Origin: Fibrobacteria bacterium AD312
GTDB lineage: Bacteria; Fibrobacterota; Fibrobacteria; Fibrobacterales; Fibrobacteraceae
Length of the DNA: 64,000 nt
NCBI GenBank assembly: GCA_001462345.1
Contig: LIUM01000002.1
Span: 57,954-121,953 of the forward strand
Direction of reading: 5' to 3'
Position 1 is the first letter of the stretch; each line of letters begins with the position of its first letter. Of this stretch, positions 23,468-64,000 are shown in pieces. Position numbers and translations under genes: made by a program. The notes below the pieces were generated by a model that was not told where the DNA came from, searched no databases, and was given only the letters and a program-made list of their open reading frames with translations.

Positions 23468-25342
23468 ATGAATCGCCCCCTTTTTCTAATTGTTTTTATC
23501 GTTTCTGCTCTTTTTTTTGCCAATCCTTTATTGGCAGATGAAGGCACCTCCGGAAAAGTTCGCTCTGTTTTAGGAGAAGTCACTCGACAAAAGAAGGCTC
23601 AAAATCAATGGCTTCCACTTCGCGTCGGTGCTAAAGTATATGAGTCCGAATTAATTAGAACACTTGTCGAATCACAAGCAATCATTTCTCTTCCTGATGG
23701 TAGTTCTCTCACCATCGAAGAAAATGCCATCGTTGTTTTAGAAAAAGTATTTTCTAAAAAAGGATCCAAAGAAACAACCTTAAATATTAAAAGCGGATTA
23801 CTTCACTTTGATGTCCAAAAGCAAGCTGGGAAAACAGGGTCTTTCAAATTTAAGACAGGCACTGCCACTGCTGCTATTCGAGGAACAAATGGAGCTATAG
23901 GCATTGCTAAAAAAGGCCTATTCGCATCCCTTGCCGAAGGAGCTCTTGAAGTTCAAGACGCTCAGGGTAATAAAATACTCCTAAAGAAAGGGCAAACATT
24001 AGTACAAGACTCCGCTATGGGATTTATTGTAATAGATAACCCTCTATCAGGAACTAGCGATTTTTCAAAAAGTCTTCATATCATTCTTAATGACCCTAAT
24101 TCCACTAAACAAATTACTCCTGAGCTTTTAGATTCATTAACTACAACGTTCAATAGCAAAATAGATTCTCTTCTTGAAAAATCTAAATGCCAGTTTAACT
24201 CGGTTGAAGATACCCTATATTCAAATGAAATAAAAATTCAAGGAAGATGTATTCCTGGAATTTTACTTTCTATAGATGGAGAACAAACCGCGCCAACACT
24301 AGATAGCATTGTAGAACATACCATTACTTGGGAACAAGGTCTATTTGGAGAAAAGAAATATCGTATTTACTGTCTAGATAACCAAATACAAGCTCTATGT
24401 GGCGAAGTTCAATTCGTTTATGCCGATAATTCTAATGTAAAAAAAGAAGCGAAAAACAATTTTACTATTCAAAACCCTGGTTCAATTCAAGTTTGTGAAT
24501 CTAACTCTATTCAAATTGAAGGGACTTTTGAAAAAGCGAGTGAGGATACTGAATTAAGAATTAAAATGGGTAAATATATATCTGAAAACTTAATTCCTCT
24601 CCATGAGAACGACAAGTTCTTCCATTCCATTACAATCAATGACTTAAATAAAAATTGGAATGAAAAAACAATCGAAGTAGAAATGACAAATGCAAAAGGA
24701 TTAATTAAGAAAGAAACCATCGCTCTCGATATTAATAAAACTTGTAAAAGTGTAAATGTCATTGCGCCCAAAATAAAATGGCTTTCAAGTGATTCTTTAA
24801 GATGCCATGCGACATTAAAAATAACAGACGCTAATGAAGACGAATCTTTGCTCTCTACTTATGTCAATTCAAATCTCACTTCAGAATCTTATTATAAAGG
24901 GAATCAAAACAAAATTCAAATTTCATTAAAGCCAGGAATTCAAGATTATCGTTTTAAAGTGCAAGATTTAGCCAAAAATGAAAGTGAAATCAAAAAAACA
25001 CTCGGCTGTTTCCCTAAACGACAAGCTCAAATCCAGATTTATGGTGGTAAATCCGAAGTATGGCGAGTGCCTCCTCCTCCAAAGGGTGCAAGTAATATTT
25101 TGAACAAAGAATTACGCTTTTCTATTAAGAACATTCCCGAAAATGATACTCGATATATCCAACAAGTTTTGGTAAAAAAGAACGGCCGAATAATCTTAAA
25201 TCTTCTAAAACATCAGATTACAGATTTGAATTACAATATACCTATTGAAATAACAAGAGACTCAAATAATATTTTTGAAATTGAAGTCCGATTAAAAAGC
25301 GGAAATGTAAATAAAGCCACGAAAACTTTTGAGGTACGATAA
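23468..25342 (+). CDS. Secreted FecR-domain protein
   Basis: The 624-residue protein has a signal peptide (about residues 1-23) and a FecR domain (about 28-180): GKVRSVLGEVTRQ, then SLPDGSSLTIEENA and the FKTGTATAAIRGTNGAI strand, as in periplasmic FecR-type domains. The remainder (about 190-620) appears as several beta-rich Ig-like modules with paired cysteines (for example near CQFNSVEDT and GRCIPG). It lacks the membrane anchor of classical anti-sigma FecR. GGAGG lies four bases before the ATG. Its TAA shares a base with the ATG of the giant outer-membrane protein, so the two are coupled and probably form one envelope complex. Confidence 0.85.
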   Translation: MNRPLFLIVFIVSALFFANPLLADEGTSGKVRSVLGEVTRQKKAQNQWLPLRVGAKVYESELIRTLVESQAIISLPDGSSLTIEENAIVVLEKVFSKKGSKETTLNIKSGLLHFDVQKQAGKTGSFKFKTGTATAAIRGTNGAIGIAKKGLFASLAEGALEVQDAQGNKILLKKGQTLVQDSAMGFIVIDNPLSGTSDFSKSLHIILNDPNSTKQITPELLDSLTTTFNSKIDSLLEKSKCQFNSVEDTLYSNEIKIQGRCIPGILLSIDGEQTAPTLDSIVEHTITWEQGLFGEKKYRIYCLDNQIQALCGEVQFVYADNSNVKKEAKNNFTIQNPGSIQVCESNSIQIEGTFEKASEDTELRIKMGKYISENLIPLHENDKFFHSITINDLNKNWNEKTIEVEMTNAKGLIKKETIALDINKTCKSVNVIAPKIKWLSSDSLRCHATLKITDANEDESLLSTYVNSNLTSESYYKGNQNKIQISLKPGIQDYRFKVQDLAKNESEIKKTLGCFPKRQAQIQIYGGKSEVWRVPPPPKGASNILNKELRFSIKNIPENDTRYIQQVLVKKNGRIILNLLKHQITDLNYNIPIEITRDSNNIFEIEVRLKSGNVNKATKTFEVR

Positions 25343-28300
25343 TGATAAATTACCGCATCACTGGATTCACATTTTTATTATTGACTACCCTTCTATTTGC
25401 TCAATCAGCTGATTCTTTGAACAGCCAAAACGAAACAAACGTTGCCACTGATTCTTTGAATAGTCAAAACGTAACAACTGTTGCTACTGATTCTTTGAAC
25501 AGCCAAAACGTAATAAATGTTGCCACTGATTCTTTGAACAGCCAAAACGAAACAAATGTTGCCACTGATTCTTTGAATAGTCAAAACGTAACAAATGTTG
25601 CCACTGATTCTTTGAACAGCCAAAACGAAACAAATGTTGCCACTGATTCTTTGAACAGCCAAAACGAAACAAATGTTGCCACTGATTCTTTGAACAGCCA
25701 AAACGAAACAAATGTTGCCACTGATTCTTTGAATAGTCAAAACGTAACAACTGTTGCCACTGATTCTTTGAACAGCCAAAACGAAACAAATGTTGCTACT
25801 GATTCTTTGAACAGCCAAAACGAAACAAATGTTGCCACTGATTCTTTGAACAGCCAAAACGAAACAAATGTTGCTACTGATTCTTCGAAAAAACAAGACG
25901 AACCAAAAGTCGCCATTGATGCTTCAAAAGAGCAACAACAGTCTTCGACAATGCTTTCTGGAGAGATTCATGGCTTTTTAACAAAAGACAAGTCTCCTTA
26001 TACTGTCACACAATCCATTTCAATCCCTGTAGGAAGAGTTTTGATCATAGAACCTGGAGTTGAAATCCGTTTTGATACAGGGGCTTCTTTCTCTATTGAT
26101 CAAGGGCAACTCATCGCTGGAGGAACAAAAGCCTTTCCTATTATTTTCAAAGGGATTGAATCCTCTACCGTTTGGAATGGTATTTCCATCACTGGCCCTA
26201 AAAAATCGGATCTTCGCTTTGTAGAAATTAGTGGCGCCAAAACAGGAGTAGTTTTACAACAAGGTTCTCTTACAATTCAAGACACTAAAATAGCAGATGC
26301 CTCGGAACGAGGTCTTTTTGCCATTCAATCTAACTTAAAAATGATTCATTGCTTTTTTAAGAATAATCCGATTGGAGTTCATTTGGCTTCAAAAAATGAA
26401 GCTTATTTAGAAAGAATTCTATTCAAAGAAAATATCATTGGTTTATATTCATCTTCTGAATCTAACGCTCAAATAGTTTCCTCTATTTGGAAAGAGAATA
26501 GATTCGCTTTATTATATATGAAAAACAGTCAGCTAACACTTCATCGTAGTTCTATTGAAAACAATGAAGTGGGAATTTGTTCAAACGAAATGCTTCGACC
26601 AGAAACTCGTGAACAAGTGAAAAACAATAAAATTGATTTTCAATCAAAAGCTGATTTTTTAGCCACTAAGATTCCATTGCCTCCAGAGCTTAAACTTTCT
26701 TTAGAAGACGAACCTAAAACAGAAATCCCTGCCATTAGCCAAGCAAAAGATTCCACGAATTGGACAATGGTAGGCAACGTTTCAGCAGGTATAAACTACC
26801 GTTATGTATACACCAGAAGAAATCATGGCAAATTAAATGAAGTGATCAATCAGGACACCATCGGTGTAAAAGAACGCTATCCTAATCTATGGGAAATTCC
26901 TGGAATTGGTTTTGATGCAAGTGTTTACTTATTACTCAAAAACAATAATAATCAATCTCTAGAGCTTTCCACTGATTTTTATTCAGATTCATGGAATCGC
27001 TTCAATTTAGATCACTTCTCTTTAGAATATAGCGATAACTATAATGTACTCACTTTAGGAGACTTTAATTTAAGCTTAGGAGAAACGTATTTAGCAGGAC
27101 TATCTGCTTTTGGTGCCCACTATACTTTATCTCTTTTAAGAAAAAAAGAAAATCACCCTCTATTTACTTTTAGTGGTTTTTGGGGAGAAGCTCAAAAGCC
27201 ATTCATTACTGACACACGAAACCCAGATATTTACAAAGATTGGATTGATGAAGGCGAAGCGAAAGCACAGCGACTGGTTTGGGGTGGTGATTTCAAGTGG
27301 GATCCTTTACGTCGTTTTAACGCCAATTTCGGAGTTCTCTTCTCTGATGACGAAATCGATGATCCACTCCTTCGAGATGGTGACCGCGCCACCACCATTA
27401 CAGCAGATCCATTGCAAAGCGCCATGTCTGTTTATGCCGAAGGAAATTGGTTGTTTTTCCCTGGAGATATTGAATTAAACGGTCAAATCGCCCTCGGACG
27501 AGCTGATACTAGTGATGTCATTGCCCAAAGAGCCATAAATCAAGTGTTTCAAGATGCAGGTTTATCCACTTCTTCGTATGCAACGCTTCGTGAAATAATG
27601 CAAAATTCTAATCTAATTCAATCTCTATCAAGAGACGAAATGATTCAAATTTTTGGTGACTACACCTCTCTCACGAACAGTGAAATGAGAGATTCTTTAA
27701 GTTCCCTGATTCAAGAAGCAAAGAAAGTACGTGATGATTTTGAAAAAGAAACAAATGACTCTAGAACCATTGGACTTGATGTTACAAGTCAAAATGTCGC
27801 CATTGGAGCCTCTCTCTTTTGGAACATTAAAAAGACAACCTTGTTTGGGCATATTAATTACGTTGGCGAAAATTACTATAGTCCGGGATCCCCTAGTCAA
27901 TTAACTGACGTTCGAGAGTTTGGTGGCTATTTAAAACAAGAAGTCTCTCCCAAATGGACATTCAAATTCAGCTATGAATTAGACGTAGAAAATGCGGCCA
28001 AAGATACGAAGTATAATATTTTTGGTTTAAGTGAAGGAACTCGCTTAGGCTTATTTGAAGAACCTGATTCTCTATATCTGAAAGAACATGAACTAGATAT
28101 AGACCGCACAAAATACCTCCACGATCTTGGCATTGAAAATACATTTACACTCAATAAAAACACGAACGTCTTTTTTAATTTTCAATTTGAATATCAAACA
28201 CAACACCGTCCTTACCGTCTAAGAGCACTTTATGATGCAGAAAGCGGTATTTTTAACGATTCTTGGTTTGCCCCAATCAGAAATAGAGATACAACCACTT

Positions 28301-29139
28301 TAGTTTACAATAGAGATACGATTCTTGTCGATTCTGCTCGCTGGAGTCGTTATCAAGACCTAACTAAAGAGCCCTTTATCGCCTCCGATTTTGAAGAACA
28401 CTTATTTGAGCTAACCTTTGATCTAGGCTTCTCGTATGCTTTCTGGAATAGCGAATTTAGAATCGATGGTATCTGGAAAGGAAAGCTTGATGGTTCTGAG
28501 TTTAAGAATGATTCTATGATTCAAAAGATTGATTTATCCACTGAAAATTGGGGTAAAATGGGGTATTATTTTTATGGGAATAATTACTTTGAACAAAAAT
28601 ACCCGATGTCTATCCAGACGAATCATCCAAAATACATCAATCGTTTAACATTTACTCCTCGTTATAAATATTATGAAAGAGATAATTTGAAAGAAAGGGA
28701 ATTAAGCTTATCCAATAAATTTGAAGTTCCTCTATTTTCTAAATTCCTCTCTCTCGCCTTGTCTGTTGAAATGAAAACCTTCAAACTCTCATGGGTCGAA
28801 GCAGATTATATGCTCCAAGATACTTTAAGTCAAGAAAAATTTCATTATTATCGTTTAGAAGATAGTAGAATTGTGGCAACAAATAAACCTAACCCCACAG
28901 ACAATGAAGTCTCTTCTCAATTACAAAAATTAGAAAACGGCTATGAGTTAATTTCAGAAGATAAAGAAAAAGAAGAAAGAGAAAATGACTATATCGTAGA
29001 AATCTCTGCCAAAATGAATCATTCAAAACAAATTTCCAGCGAATGGATTTGCCGTGGAGAATTCTTTGATAGACCAAATCAATTATCTAATGAATATAAA
29101 AATCTGTATTTCGGATTTAACTTTAACTATTCCTTTTAA
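25342..29139 (+). CDS. Giant outer-membrane protein: signal peptide, 13-residue repeats, beta-helix, barrel
   Basis: The 1265-residue protein has a signal peptide (about 1-22), twelve tandem 13-residue repeats of the form DSLNSQNETNVAT (residues 24-179) plus degenerate copies, a right-handed parallel beta-helix (about 205-420; SIPVGRVLIIEPGVEIRFD, then regular short strands with N and S turns) and a long C-terminal region of alternating aromatic strands that ends FGFNFNYSF, which fits a beta-barrel. It probably displays or anchors the beta-helix at the outer membrane. It overlaps the FecR gene by one base (TAATG). No enzyme motif is evident. Repeat number could vary without changing the frame because each copy is 39 bp. 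Confidence 0.78.
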   Translation: MINYRITGFTFLLLTTLLFAQSADSLNSQNETNVATDSLNSQNVTTVATDSLNSQNVINVATDSLNSQNETNVATDSLNSQNVTNVATDSLNSQNETNVATDSLNSQNETNVATDSLNSQNETNVATDSLNSQNVTTVATDSLNSQNETNVATDSLNSQNETNVATDSLNSQNETNVATDSSKKQDEPKVAIDASKEQQQSSTMLSGEIHGFLTKDKSPYTVTQSISIPVGRVLIIEPGVEIRFDTGASFSIDQGQLIAGGTKAFPIIFKGIESSTVWNGISITGPKKSDLRFVEISGAKTGVVLQQGSLTIQDTKIADASERGLFAIQSNLKMIHCFFKNNPIGVHLASKNEAYLERILFKENIIGLYSSSESNAQIVSSIWKENRFALLYMKNSQLTLHRSSIENNEVGICSNEMLRPETREQVKNNKIDFQSKADFLATKIPLPPELKLSLEDEPKTEIPAISQAKDSTNWTMVGNVSAGINYRYVYTRRNHGKLNEVINQDTIGVKERYPNLWEIPGIGFDASVYLLLKNNNNQSLELSTDFYSDSWNRFNLDHFSLEYSDNYNVLTLGDFNLSLGETYLAGLSAFGAHYTLSLLRKKENHPLFTFSGFWGEAQKPFITDTRNPDIYKDWIDEGEAKAQRLVWGGDFKWDPLRRFNANFGVLFSDDEIDDPLLRDGDRATTITADPLQSAMSVYAEGNWLFFPGDIELNGQIALGRADTSDVIAQRAINQVFQDAGLSTSSYATLREIMQNSNLIQSLSRDEMIQIFGDYTSLTNSEMRDSLSSLIQEAKKVRDDFEKETNDSRTIGLDVTSQNVAIGASLFWNIKKTTLFGHINYVGENYYSPGSPSQLTDVREFGGYLKQEVSPKWTFKFSYELDVENAAKDTKYNIFGLSEGTRLGLFEEPDSLYLKEHELDIDRTKYLHDLGIENTFTLNKNTNVFFNFQFEYQTQHRPYRLRALYDAESGIFNDSWFAPIRNRDTTTLVYNRDTILVDSARWSRYQDLTKEPFIASDFEEHLFELTFDLGFSYAFWNSEFRIDGIWKGKLDGSEFKNDSMIQKIDLSTENWGKMGYYFYGNNYFEQKYPMSIQTNHPKYINRLTFTPRYKYYERDNLKERELSLSNKFEVPLFSKFLSLALSVEMKTFKLSWVEADYMLQDTLSQEKFHYYRLEDSRIVATNKPNPTDNEVSSQLQKLENGYELISEDKEKEERENDYIVEISAKMNHSKQISSEWICRGEFFDRPNQLSNEYKNLYFGFNFNYSF
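25411..25878 (+). repeat. Twelve tandem 39-bp repeats within a coding region
   Basis: Twelve head-to-tail 39-bp units encode DSLN-SQN-(E/V)-(T/I)-(N/T)-VAT. Variants alternate in blocks (ACG-AAA versus ACG-TAA in the middle), which suggests past duplication of multi-unit blocks. Two degenerate units follow to about 25930. Eleven of the twelve units contain an N-x-T sequon. Confidence 0.95.
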
Positions 29140-62400: not shown

Positions 62401-63040
62401 TTCTTTTTCTACGGGAATTATTACCACTAACTGTGCATGGTTCAACTTCAGCATTAGTGTTTGTGTTTTTGGAAACTATTTTCGCGAACCATGCATGTAC
62501 GAAAACGAGACGCCAATCTAAACTAACCCCATTTTTTCATGCAGAGACAAGCGTTTTTTTGTACCACAAGGGTATCACTACCACAAGGGTATCACTCTCA
62601 CGTAAGTAGTAAACTACTAAGTGTTCGTGTTTCTTACTAAGCGCAGCTATGCATGGTTCCGACTAAAGCACTAGAAGTGCTAAGTCTCACGTAAAAGCAT
62701 ATAAGTGTTCGTATTTCTTACTAAGCGCAGCTATGCATGGTTCAACTACAGCGGTGAACCGCTAAGTCTCACGTAAAACTACTAAGTGTTCGTGTTTACC
62801 ACAAGGGTATCACTACCACAGGGGTATCACTCTTACTAAGCGCTGAAGCGCAAGTGTACGTGTTTCTCACGTAAGTAGAGCTCTGCATGGTTCCGACTAA
62901 AGCACTAGAAGTGCTAAGTCTCACGTAAAACTACTAAGTGTTCGTGTTTCTCACATAAAAAGAGCTATGCATGGTTCAACTACAGCGGTGAACCGCTAAG
63001 TCTCACGTAAAACTTTTAAGTGTTCGTGTTCCTGTAAAGC
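62401..63040. repeat. Repeat island, left part: 234-bp nested tandem repeats
   Basis: No gene is supported. Shared blocks such as GCATGGTTC, CTCACGTAA and AAGTGTTCGTGTTTC recur. A segment from about 62647 recurs 234 bases later near 62881 (offset also for the second module, 62729 and 62963). Small hairpins sit at equivalent places but differ in sequence: AGCACT-AGA-AGTGCT, AGCGGT-GA-ACCGCT, GCGCT-GA-AGCGC and AGTAGT-AA-ACTACT, all followed by AAGT. A 17-bp unit TACCACAAGGGTATCAC is duplicated head to tail at 62562 and 62579 and again at 62797 and 62814. GCATGGTTC at 62434 and its reverse complement at 62487 form inverted arms. Confidence 0.85.
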
Positions 63041-64000
63041 AAATAGCGAAGGCTCAAGTAGAAAAAAATAACCCTATTCATTTAATCAACACAATACAAT
63101 GACTCAGATTGAAATGACTATTATTGATGAGCTCGTTTTGAAATGTAATTGCATGAAAAAAGAAAAGTTCATCTAAACAAACCGAGTTTTTTTTATGAAG
63201 AACCAAGCGTCATTTGCTTGGAAAGCAAATAGCGAAGGTTTGAATAAAAAAAATAATACTTTTCAATTAAATCATAATAGTGAATTACTAGACGAAAATG
63301 GATTTTACTTTAGAGCGACTCTTTTAGAGCGACTCTTGTGTGGCACACAACGGAGCGAGAAAGTAAAACCATTTCCGTCAACCATAGTATTATTGAGTTT
63401 TAATGAAAAAACCATTTCCGTCAACAATAACTGTTTCTGATTTTTATTAGAAACGCTATTGCACGAAAAAGAAACGCCCCTCTAAACCCATCCCCGTTTT
63501 TTTAATGAAAAAACAAGCGTTAATTGAATTGGCCAATTCAATAGCGAAGTTTTGAATAAAAAAAATAACCCTATCCAATTAAATAACAATAGTTGCATAG
63601 CAGACGAAAATGGATTTTACTTTAGAGCGACTCTTGTGTGGCACACAACGGAGCGAGAAAGTAAAACCATTTCCGTCAACAAGAGTAACATTGAGCTTTA
63701 GTGAAAAAACCATTTCCGTCAACCATAGTATTATTGAGTTTTAATGAAAAAACCATTTCCGTCAACAAGAGTGATATTAAAATGTAATGAAAAAATGCTT
63801 TCCGTCAACCATAACTGTTTCTGATTTTTATTAGAAACAGTTATTGCACGAAAAAGAAACGCCCATCTAACTCAACCCAGTTTTTTTTCATGAAGAACCG
63901 AACGTTATTTGATTGGATAATCAAATAGTGAAGGTTCAAGTAGAAAAAAATAACCCTATTCATTTAATCAACACAATACAATGACTCAGATTGAAATGAC
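63041..64000. repeat. Repeat island, right part: hairpin-bearing imperfect repeats reaching the window end
   Basis: Units of about 300-390 bp repeat imperfectly. Each holds a hairpin before AGCGAAG: ATTTGCTT-GGA-AAGCAAAT (63212-63230), ATTGAATTGGCCAATTCAAT (63523-63542), ATTTGATT-GGAT-AATCAAAT (63907-63926). Segment 63041-63118 recurs at 63923-64000 with about two differences (offset 882). The block GACGAAAATGGATTTTAC appears at 63291 and 63603, the 15-mer ACCATTTCCGTCAAC at least five times, and TTGTGTG-G-CACACAA hairpins twice. ATAACTGTTTC and GAAACAGTTAT form a stem at 63811-63844. The island continues beyond the window. Confidence 0.85.

Follow-up and report, generated by a model that had tools for sequence, protein, structure and literature searches.

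Arrays of short hairpin elements set in the tips of other hairpins in a Fibrobacteraceae genome

The genome of Fibrobacteria bacterium AD312 carries arrays that are best understood as short non-coding hairpin elements sitting in the tips of other such elements, and they have probably spread as miniature mobile DNA with the help of a putative enzyme. One of these arrays ends the window, the whole 64,000-nt stretch of DNA that was analysed, which is C2:57954-121953 of a 2.83-Mb genome in 50 contigs. An initial annotation of this end had described three 8-bp stems of differing sequence, each followed by AGCGAAG or AGTGAAG, and the stems are indeed there: ATTTGCTT-gga-AAGCAAAT at 63212-63230, ATTGAATT-ggcc-AATTCAAT at 63523-63542 and ATTTGATT-ggat-AATCAAAT at 63907-63926. 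They are the tips of a single hairpin family, called A here, and what had been noticed is the edge of something larger; the position at which that description began, 63041, lies inside the right half of a fourth A copy whose left arm is at 62531-62561. A loop starting with GG, also part of the description, is common to the three window stems but does not hold genome-wide, where gta, agtt, gaat, agcc and agct are found as well. The number of perfect hairpins of at least 7 bp is ordinary, since the six in the last 2 kb fall within the window's range of 0 to 8 per 2 kb; what stands out is that the position recurs and that both arms change. The folding energy of the 930-nt array is far below that of its shuffles (z -9.68, 20 shuffles).

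The base layer of the arrays is an alternation of A hairpins with a second family, B. The inserts found in their tips are called beta, and the elements found in turn within beta are called gamma. The parts of the window array are as follows.

62531..62561, plus strand: left half of A hairpin 0, ending in TTTTTTTG, the beta insertion point; the insert begins directly past TTG
62562..63030, plus strand: beta insert of 469 nt in the tip of A hairpin 0, made of tandem 17-nt and 36-nt hairpin units; the tandem periods were also found by TRF
62645..62691, plus strand: gamma element 1, 47 nt, in the tip of a beta 36-nt unit; arms GCGC/GCAT are unmatched (hybrid)
62729..62773, plus strand: gamma element 2, 45 nt; arms GCGC/CTAC are unmatched (hybrid)
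62879..62925, plus strand: gamma element 3, 47 nt; arms GTAG/CTAC pair perfectly, and the site is empty in 10 places
62963..63007, plus strand: gamma element 4, 45 nt; arms AAAAG/CTTTT pair perfectly, and the site is empty in 4 places
63031..63060, plus strand: right half of A hairpin 0 (CCTGTAAAGCAAATAGCGAAGGCTC...)
63187..63250, plus strand: A hairpin 1, intact, with tip ATTTGCTT-gga-AAGCAAAT at 63212-63230
63291..63379, plus strand: B hairpin 1, GACGAAAATGG ... TTGTGT-ggc-ACACAA ... CCATTTCCGTC
63380..63422, plus strand: 43-nt right-hand unit past B hairpin 1
63498..63562, plus strand: A hairpin 2, intact, with tip ATTGAATT-ggcc-AATTCAAT at 63523-63542
63603..63677, plus strand: B hairpin 2
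63678..63806, plus strand: three tandem 43-nt right-hand units
63811..63844, plus strand: 12-bp hairpin ATAACTGTTTCT...AGAAACAGTTAT of the unit joining to the next A hairpin
63881..63950, plus strand: A hairpin 3, intact, with tip ATTTGATT-ggat-AATCAAAT at 63907-63926

All four gamma copies thus lie inside the 469-nt beta chain of A hairpin 0, two of them between unmatched arms. The array continues past A hairpin 3 to the contig end at 64000, and it is cut, because the contig stops at the window's last base. As had been stated in the initial annotation, the window array has neither an ORF of at least 100 aa nor a known RNA family to account for it; in an Rfam search of the window a tRNA alone reached the gathering score, and the array was left without a family. 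The neighbouring gene encodes an aminofutalosine synthase of the MqnE family, with relatives mostly in Fibrobacter and Fibrobacteraceae genomes. The array at the C2 end probably continues on C22, which starts with an array followed by an NfeD-like gene; an NfeD-like gene follows the MqnE-family gene in L047. If continuous, the C2 and C22 array is at least 2.4 kb long. Elsewhere in the window, 13 copies of a 39-nt tandem repeat (25409-25924) lie inside a 1265-aa ORF (25342-29139) with no NCBIfam match.

The A hairpin reads GTTTTTTCATG..GAATC AAGCG..tip..TAGCG.AGATTC AAATGAAAAAAC and the B hairpin GACGRAAATGG ... tip ... CCATTTCCGTC. A minimal array consists of one A, a spacer of about 36 nt and one B, as seen at about C49:1650-1810 and C43:8100-8340. 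Common to most A and B tips is TTG...CAA around a variable, paired inner stem, and three B tips have TTATAT in place of the TTG-type tip. In the array stretches of this genome and of its congener G001, a motif search gave 68 A sites (40 empty, 26 filled with beta, one cut and one containing N) and 65 B sites (55 empty, nine filled and one cut). The tip stem is perfect in 34 of the empty A sites and has a mismatch in six; among the empty B sites, 34 have a perfect 6-bp tip and 21 are of another, shorter kind. Counting beta as well, there are five distinct A tip types, five B and six beta, across many loci; inversion copies from one duplication event, named earlier as one explanation that would undo the initial reading, do not fit this.

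The 43-nt right-hand units (...AATGAAAAAACCATTTCCGTC) resemble, by eye, the reverse complement of the left-hand units (CCAGTTTTTTCATGAAGAGTC...), which suggests that whole arrays may form one large closing stem. The arrays at C49:1409-1897 and C37:2900-3400 lie within copies of one host repeat (TCATTGGGTAAAATCAAAAAAGT...), and the C37 array looks, by eye, like an expanded version of the C49 array.

One argument for insertion comes from where beta and gamma sit. The basic beta unit of 53 nt combines a 17-nt hairpin with a 36-nt hairpin, starting with T[AC]CC and ending in TTCGTGTT or a near form. Of 37 first units (47 pattern matches less 10 judged to be chance outside arrays), 32 lie directly past TTG, three past TTGA and two past other bases, one of these two in an AT-only tip; in the stretches examined, 2.0% of all trinucleotides are TTG. 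These counts are partly non-independent, with at least nine different host tips distinguished by hand, five of them B. Gamma, of 45-47 nt, sits directly 5' of TAAA, either in the beta loop or further out at CTCAC/CTCGC, and hand assignment of its contexts gave 21 with perfect arms, six hybrid, seven at CTCAC/CTCGC and three without a left arm. The 79 beta 36-nt sites comprise 46 perfect stems, 29 flagged as holding gamma, three others and one cut, with six perfect stem sequences (ATGC, AGTAG, AAAAG, GCGC, AGTAC and AGGAG). Nesting reaches up to three levels, with hairpin elements inside the tips of others.

Several filled sites have an exact empty twin. Pairs of empty and filled sites were sought by motif, an automatic search with all 11-mers having been swamped by tandem repeats. 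Empty twins were found for nine of 34 beta sites (seven with flanks of 9+14 nt and two with only 3+14) and for 21 of 37 gamma sites (18 with 10+12 nt and three with 6+12), the gamma figures resting on a collapsed form in which an extra A (or G) 3' of gamma was first removed. For the remaining 25 beta sites and 16 gamma sites, none of the flank lengths tried gave an exact empty twin. All 21 twinned gamma sites show TAAAA past the insert and TAAA at the empty site. Where an empty twin could be compared, beta had no target duplication of more than 1 nt. Beta outside arrays was considered and rejected, as six further loci that were viewed are arrays or array remnants; insertion into plain host DNA was therefore not seen.

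A difference of a single unit separates the two congeners at one locus. C50 of this genome and C106 of G001 share a 1363-nt match at 99.4% identity that stops at the insert, where G001 alone has one clean 53-nt beta unit past TTTG, with no target duplication beyond 1 nt. The 17-nt and 36-nt halves of this extra unit have exact copies in three places and one place, respectively, of the present genome, which indicates that the unit was not copied from its neighbour. The difference could also be a loss in the present genome or a patch from another array. Further along the same alignment, a switch from A to B directly past a beta end is best explained by a recombination deletion. When C46 and C50 are compared with C3 and C106 of G001, their flanks are 98-99% identical, and at most other loci identity is about 78-91%; the high values suggest that genes have recently flowed between the congeners or that the bins are mixed.

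An alternative does without any transposition; in it, homologous recombination, gene conversion and slippage alone built the arrays, loop contents being copied from filled to empty hairpins by way of their common arms. In its favour are array sites that are common to the congeners while their contents differ, the six gamma copies between arms of different families and the one orthologous array from which the stretch bounded by two betas, one in A and one in B, has apparently been lost. It also gains from mismatched arms being commoner in gamma-filled tips (6/27) than in empty tips (1/47; Fisher p 0.008, rising to 0.022 with a second doubtful case included), a partly circular test, since the classes are hand-assigned and pairing was itself used to recognise empty tips. 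The excess of unmatched arms fits either repair copying or recombination. Against it, beta occupies the same TTG point in A and in B hairpins whose arms are otherwise unlike, and arm homology is unlikely to have placed it there every time. Recombination on its own is judged unlikely, and insertion of mobile elements remains the preferred reading.

Array DNA matches 98 places in the genome. The array pieces, some 40 in number, are intergenic; a repeat-word mask, which may overrun the true edges, marks 39 accepted pieces, 38 of which sum to about 26 kb, and three more pieces were found later. Some pieces belong together as the ends of a single array split by a contig break; a contig end often truncates an array, and runs of N occur in three of the arrays viewed. 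By a hand tally, 24 of 100 contig ends, the window's included, lie within arrays.

Copies in related genomes, which the initial annotation had proposed looking for, were found in the congener G001, probably isolate AS06rmzACSIP_176 (96% identity over the same 137 residues at the same place on the contig). A nucleotide search of 41 genomes gave matches in the present genome and in G001, plus two weak ones in G004. With a covariance model of the A hairpin run over 111 genomes of the family, 33 sites were found in the present genome and eight in G001, and none in the other 109, the congener G002 among them; weak A matches may have been missed because this search used stricter filters. G002 lacks an array at the orthologous position behind a second MqnE-like gene; on the contig presumed to be from G002, the interval from the MqnE-family gene to the following gene is likewise free of one. 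G001 is 74% complete, and flank comparison places 14 of its 15 array loci beside an array locus of the present genome; the fifteenth (C131) had no flank match in a comparison that covered only the present genome's stretches around arrays. Wherever orthologous loci were compared, the array contents differ between the two genomes. The beta pattern, with up to two mismatches allowed, has one match in each of three other family genomes, and these are taken as chance, all being one sequence with two mismatches. Horizontal spread by phage or plasmid was rejected: in collections from which records very near this genome may be absent, the array had no match in phages or plasmids, and viral contigs held no exact gamma pattern.

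This distribution bears on the three options between which the initial annotation did not choose, namely an array of structured RNAs, a recombination array and a non-coding mobile unit. The last is favoured here. An array of conserved functional RNAs is argued against by the finding of A in just two of 111 genomes, by arrays that differ at orthologous loci and by their insertion-built look. In its broader form, this alternative holds that the hairpins are selected as structured RNAs or single-stranded DNA signals (e.g., 3'-end or processing elements) and that nesting is a tolerated by-product in loops that are free to grow. Changes in both arms that keep pairing and the strong folding energy count in its favour. 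It sits poorly with the failure to find the A hairpin in G002 and 108 other family genomes, with the lack of an Rfam match, with arrays whose side and strand follow no rule with respect to the adjacent genes and with content that is unconserved at orthologous sites. It is regarded as improbable.

The pairing itself is real. Among 30 distinct empty A hairpins from the two congeners, 93.1% of 420 outer-stem cells pair, falling to only 38-54% when the partner is slid by 1-3 columns, and 28 cells are changed on both sides against 12.4 in shuffles (0/500 reach 28), both of these controls ignoring kinship among the hairpins. No excess was found in the A stem for pairs with a change on both sides (4 versus 3.8 in shuffles) or for further pair types (10 versus 11.2). 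A subset of 13 empty A hairpins behaves in the same way. Tip stems vary with pairing kept in A, B, beta and gamma alike. The initial annotation had taken such compensatory change as a sign of selection for structure; the changes in both arms with pairing kept are confirmed, but selection as their cause is not demonstrated, because template switching during replication can yield the same pattern in one event, by copying one arm onto the other, according to the parts of the source covered (PMC8794818). The same source weighs against the structured-RNA reading, as the pattern can arise there without selection. Pairing kept through changes in both arms is therefore no proof of a selected RNA.

Under the preferred reading of mobile hairpin elements, beta and gamma would move as single units, each inserted site-specifically into a folded tip by a putative enzyme that acts at hairpin tips. 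Repeated insertion at one TTG would give the tandem beta chains, recombination between copies would then delete and reshuffle parts of the arrays, and template switching or repair copying would keep the short empty stems paired. A bolder form of this proposal, put forward tentatively and with more doubt than belief, is that the smallest known site-specific mobile elements include beta (53 nt) and gamma (45-47 nt) and that the enzyme of these two reads a folded hairpin tip and not a chromosomal site. Each element's own hairpin would then be the next landing site, arrays would grow as nested brackets and tip stems would be rewritten as matched pairs while they are short.

No enzyme tied to the arrays was found in the genome. 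The one intact Y1 transposase gene (C18:7369) lies outside the arrays, a Y1 fragment is separated from an array by about 600 nt, and a search of G001 (74% complete) found no Y1 gene; a mobilising Y1 gene was rejected, as it is not linked to the arrays. The IS200-like element on C18 appears, by eye, to have ends other than those of the array elements. Elements of the IS200/IS605 type insert on the 3' side of a short fixed target and do not duplicate it. Like miniature elements derived from them, beta lies directly past TTG in 32 of 37 cases and shows a duplication of at most 1 nt at C50/C106. Unlike them, the arrays have no bias to one replication strand, being on the G-rich strand in 21 of 36 rows, some of which are the two ends of one array. 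This argues against insertion on one replication strand as in IS200/IS605, and lagging-strand insertion was rejected for want of a strand bias. The target rule would suit an enzyme of the Y1 type; the missing strand bias would not. Integron attC stems also vary with pairing kept.

Another candidate for mobilising or processing the arrays is the recombination-promoting nuclease Rpn (PDDEXK_2), whose genes lie by several of them. Profile matches put Rpn genes beside arrays at C11, C16 and C44, and inspection by eye adds C1 and C47, where the contig end cuts the reading frames; a broken Rpn gene lies near the C49 array, and the C16 gene sits between two array pieces. The Rpn loci on C13, C40, C41 and C43, however, have no array match close by, and G001 (74% complete) has arrays but no Rpn match; a role for Rpn is considered very improbable. 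Genes or remnants of the Rpn family (PDDEXK_2, TIGR01784, Transposase_31) adjoin arrays at five to six of about eleven Rpn loci, the array-side places being C1, C11, C16:31091, C44, C47 and C49:2347 of the present genome (G000). Loss of the hairpin nuclease SbcD as the cause of accumulation was also rejected: the present genome and G002 to G005 have SbcD above the cut-off, and G001 has a match below the cut-off only.

Among known systems, the arrays appear to be best filed as nested palindromic selfish DNA and not as REP elements, their nearest likeness being the palindromes of Volvox organelles, followed by bacterial REPs. In the parts of the Volvox carteri account covered, mitochondrial and plastid DNA carries short palindromes with TAAA or TTTA loops, palindromes inserted within palindromes make larger composite repeats that are regarded as selfish DNA and an origin from organelle introns is offered as speculation (PMC2670323). 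The arrays share with these repeats their intergenic short hairpins, short loops and palindromes inside palindromes, a likeness that rests on described form and not on sequence comparison. They differ from the repeats of green-algal organelles, as described in those parts, in being found in a bacterium and in having fixed insertion points past TTG and before TAAA, an ordered hierarchy and a congener difference of a single unit; the same parts of the account (PMC2670323) give no insertion rule for the Volvox palindromes. Repetitive hairpin-forming elements have also, judging by the title of the report, invaded sponge mitochondrial DNA (PMC2800124).

The REP/REPIN sequences are, in the portions of the sources covered, high-copy intergenic hairpins whose doublets form a miniature mobile unit, with folding of single-stranded DNA thought to matter (PMC3116915, PMC6006769). 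The arrays resemble them, so far as those portions go, as high-copy extragenic palindromes (33 A-model matches in the present genome and eight in G001, with arrays between genes), and differ in pairing two hairpins of unlike sequence where REPINs have an inverted doublet, and in the insertion of hairpins into each other's tips. The REP hairpin has a GTAG foot, per the sections covered (PMC3733652); this foot is absent from the aligned A hairpins, where it is CGT. No RAYT (Y1) gene flanked by array repeats was found in the present genome or in G001. The same sections describe CGTC-tagged palindromic repeats, for which no dedicated transposase is known, in clusters in Neisseria and Wolbachia (PMC3733652). 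Several A hairpins show a partial likeness to this tag, with CGTC plus an 8-bp stem starting with AT, and the commonest A sub-family is CGTC+ATTTGCTT. Unlike the CGTC repeats as those sections present them, the fourth base of the tag varies (C, T, A or G, with CGTT, CGTA and CGTG as the other sub-families), and A lies within a longer stem. An unpaired CCA tail past the A stem is absent, the AGCG or AGTG at that place pairing with CG on the left.

The open PMC literature listed held no account of such arrays in Fibrobacter and none of bacterial nested hairpin elements with fixed insertion points. The reading given here would also account for the position of 24 of this assembly's 100 contig ends within arrays. 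The arrays carry a warning for covariation tests, since pairing is kept here through changes in both arms of what is apparently mobile DNA. Nested repeats are known from the organelles of algae, and the arrays would be their counterpart in a bacterium; with fixed insertion points, empty and filled sites and congeners that differ by one unit at one locus, the spread of such repeats would become testable.
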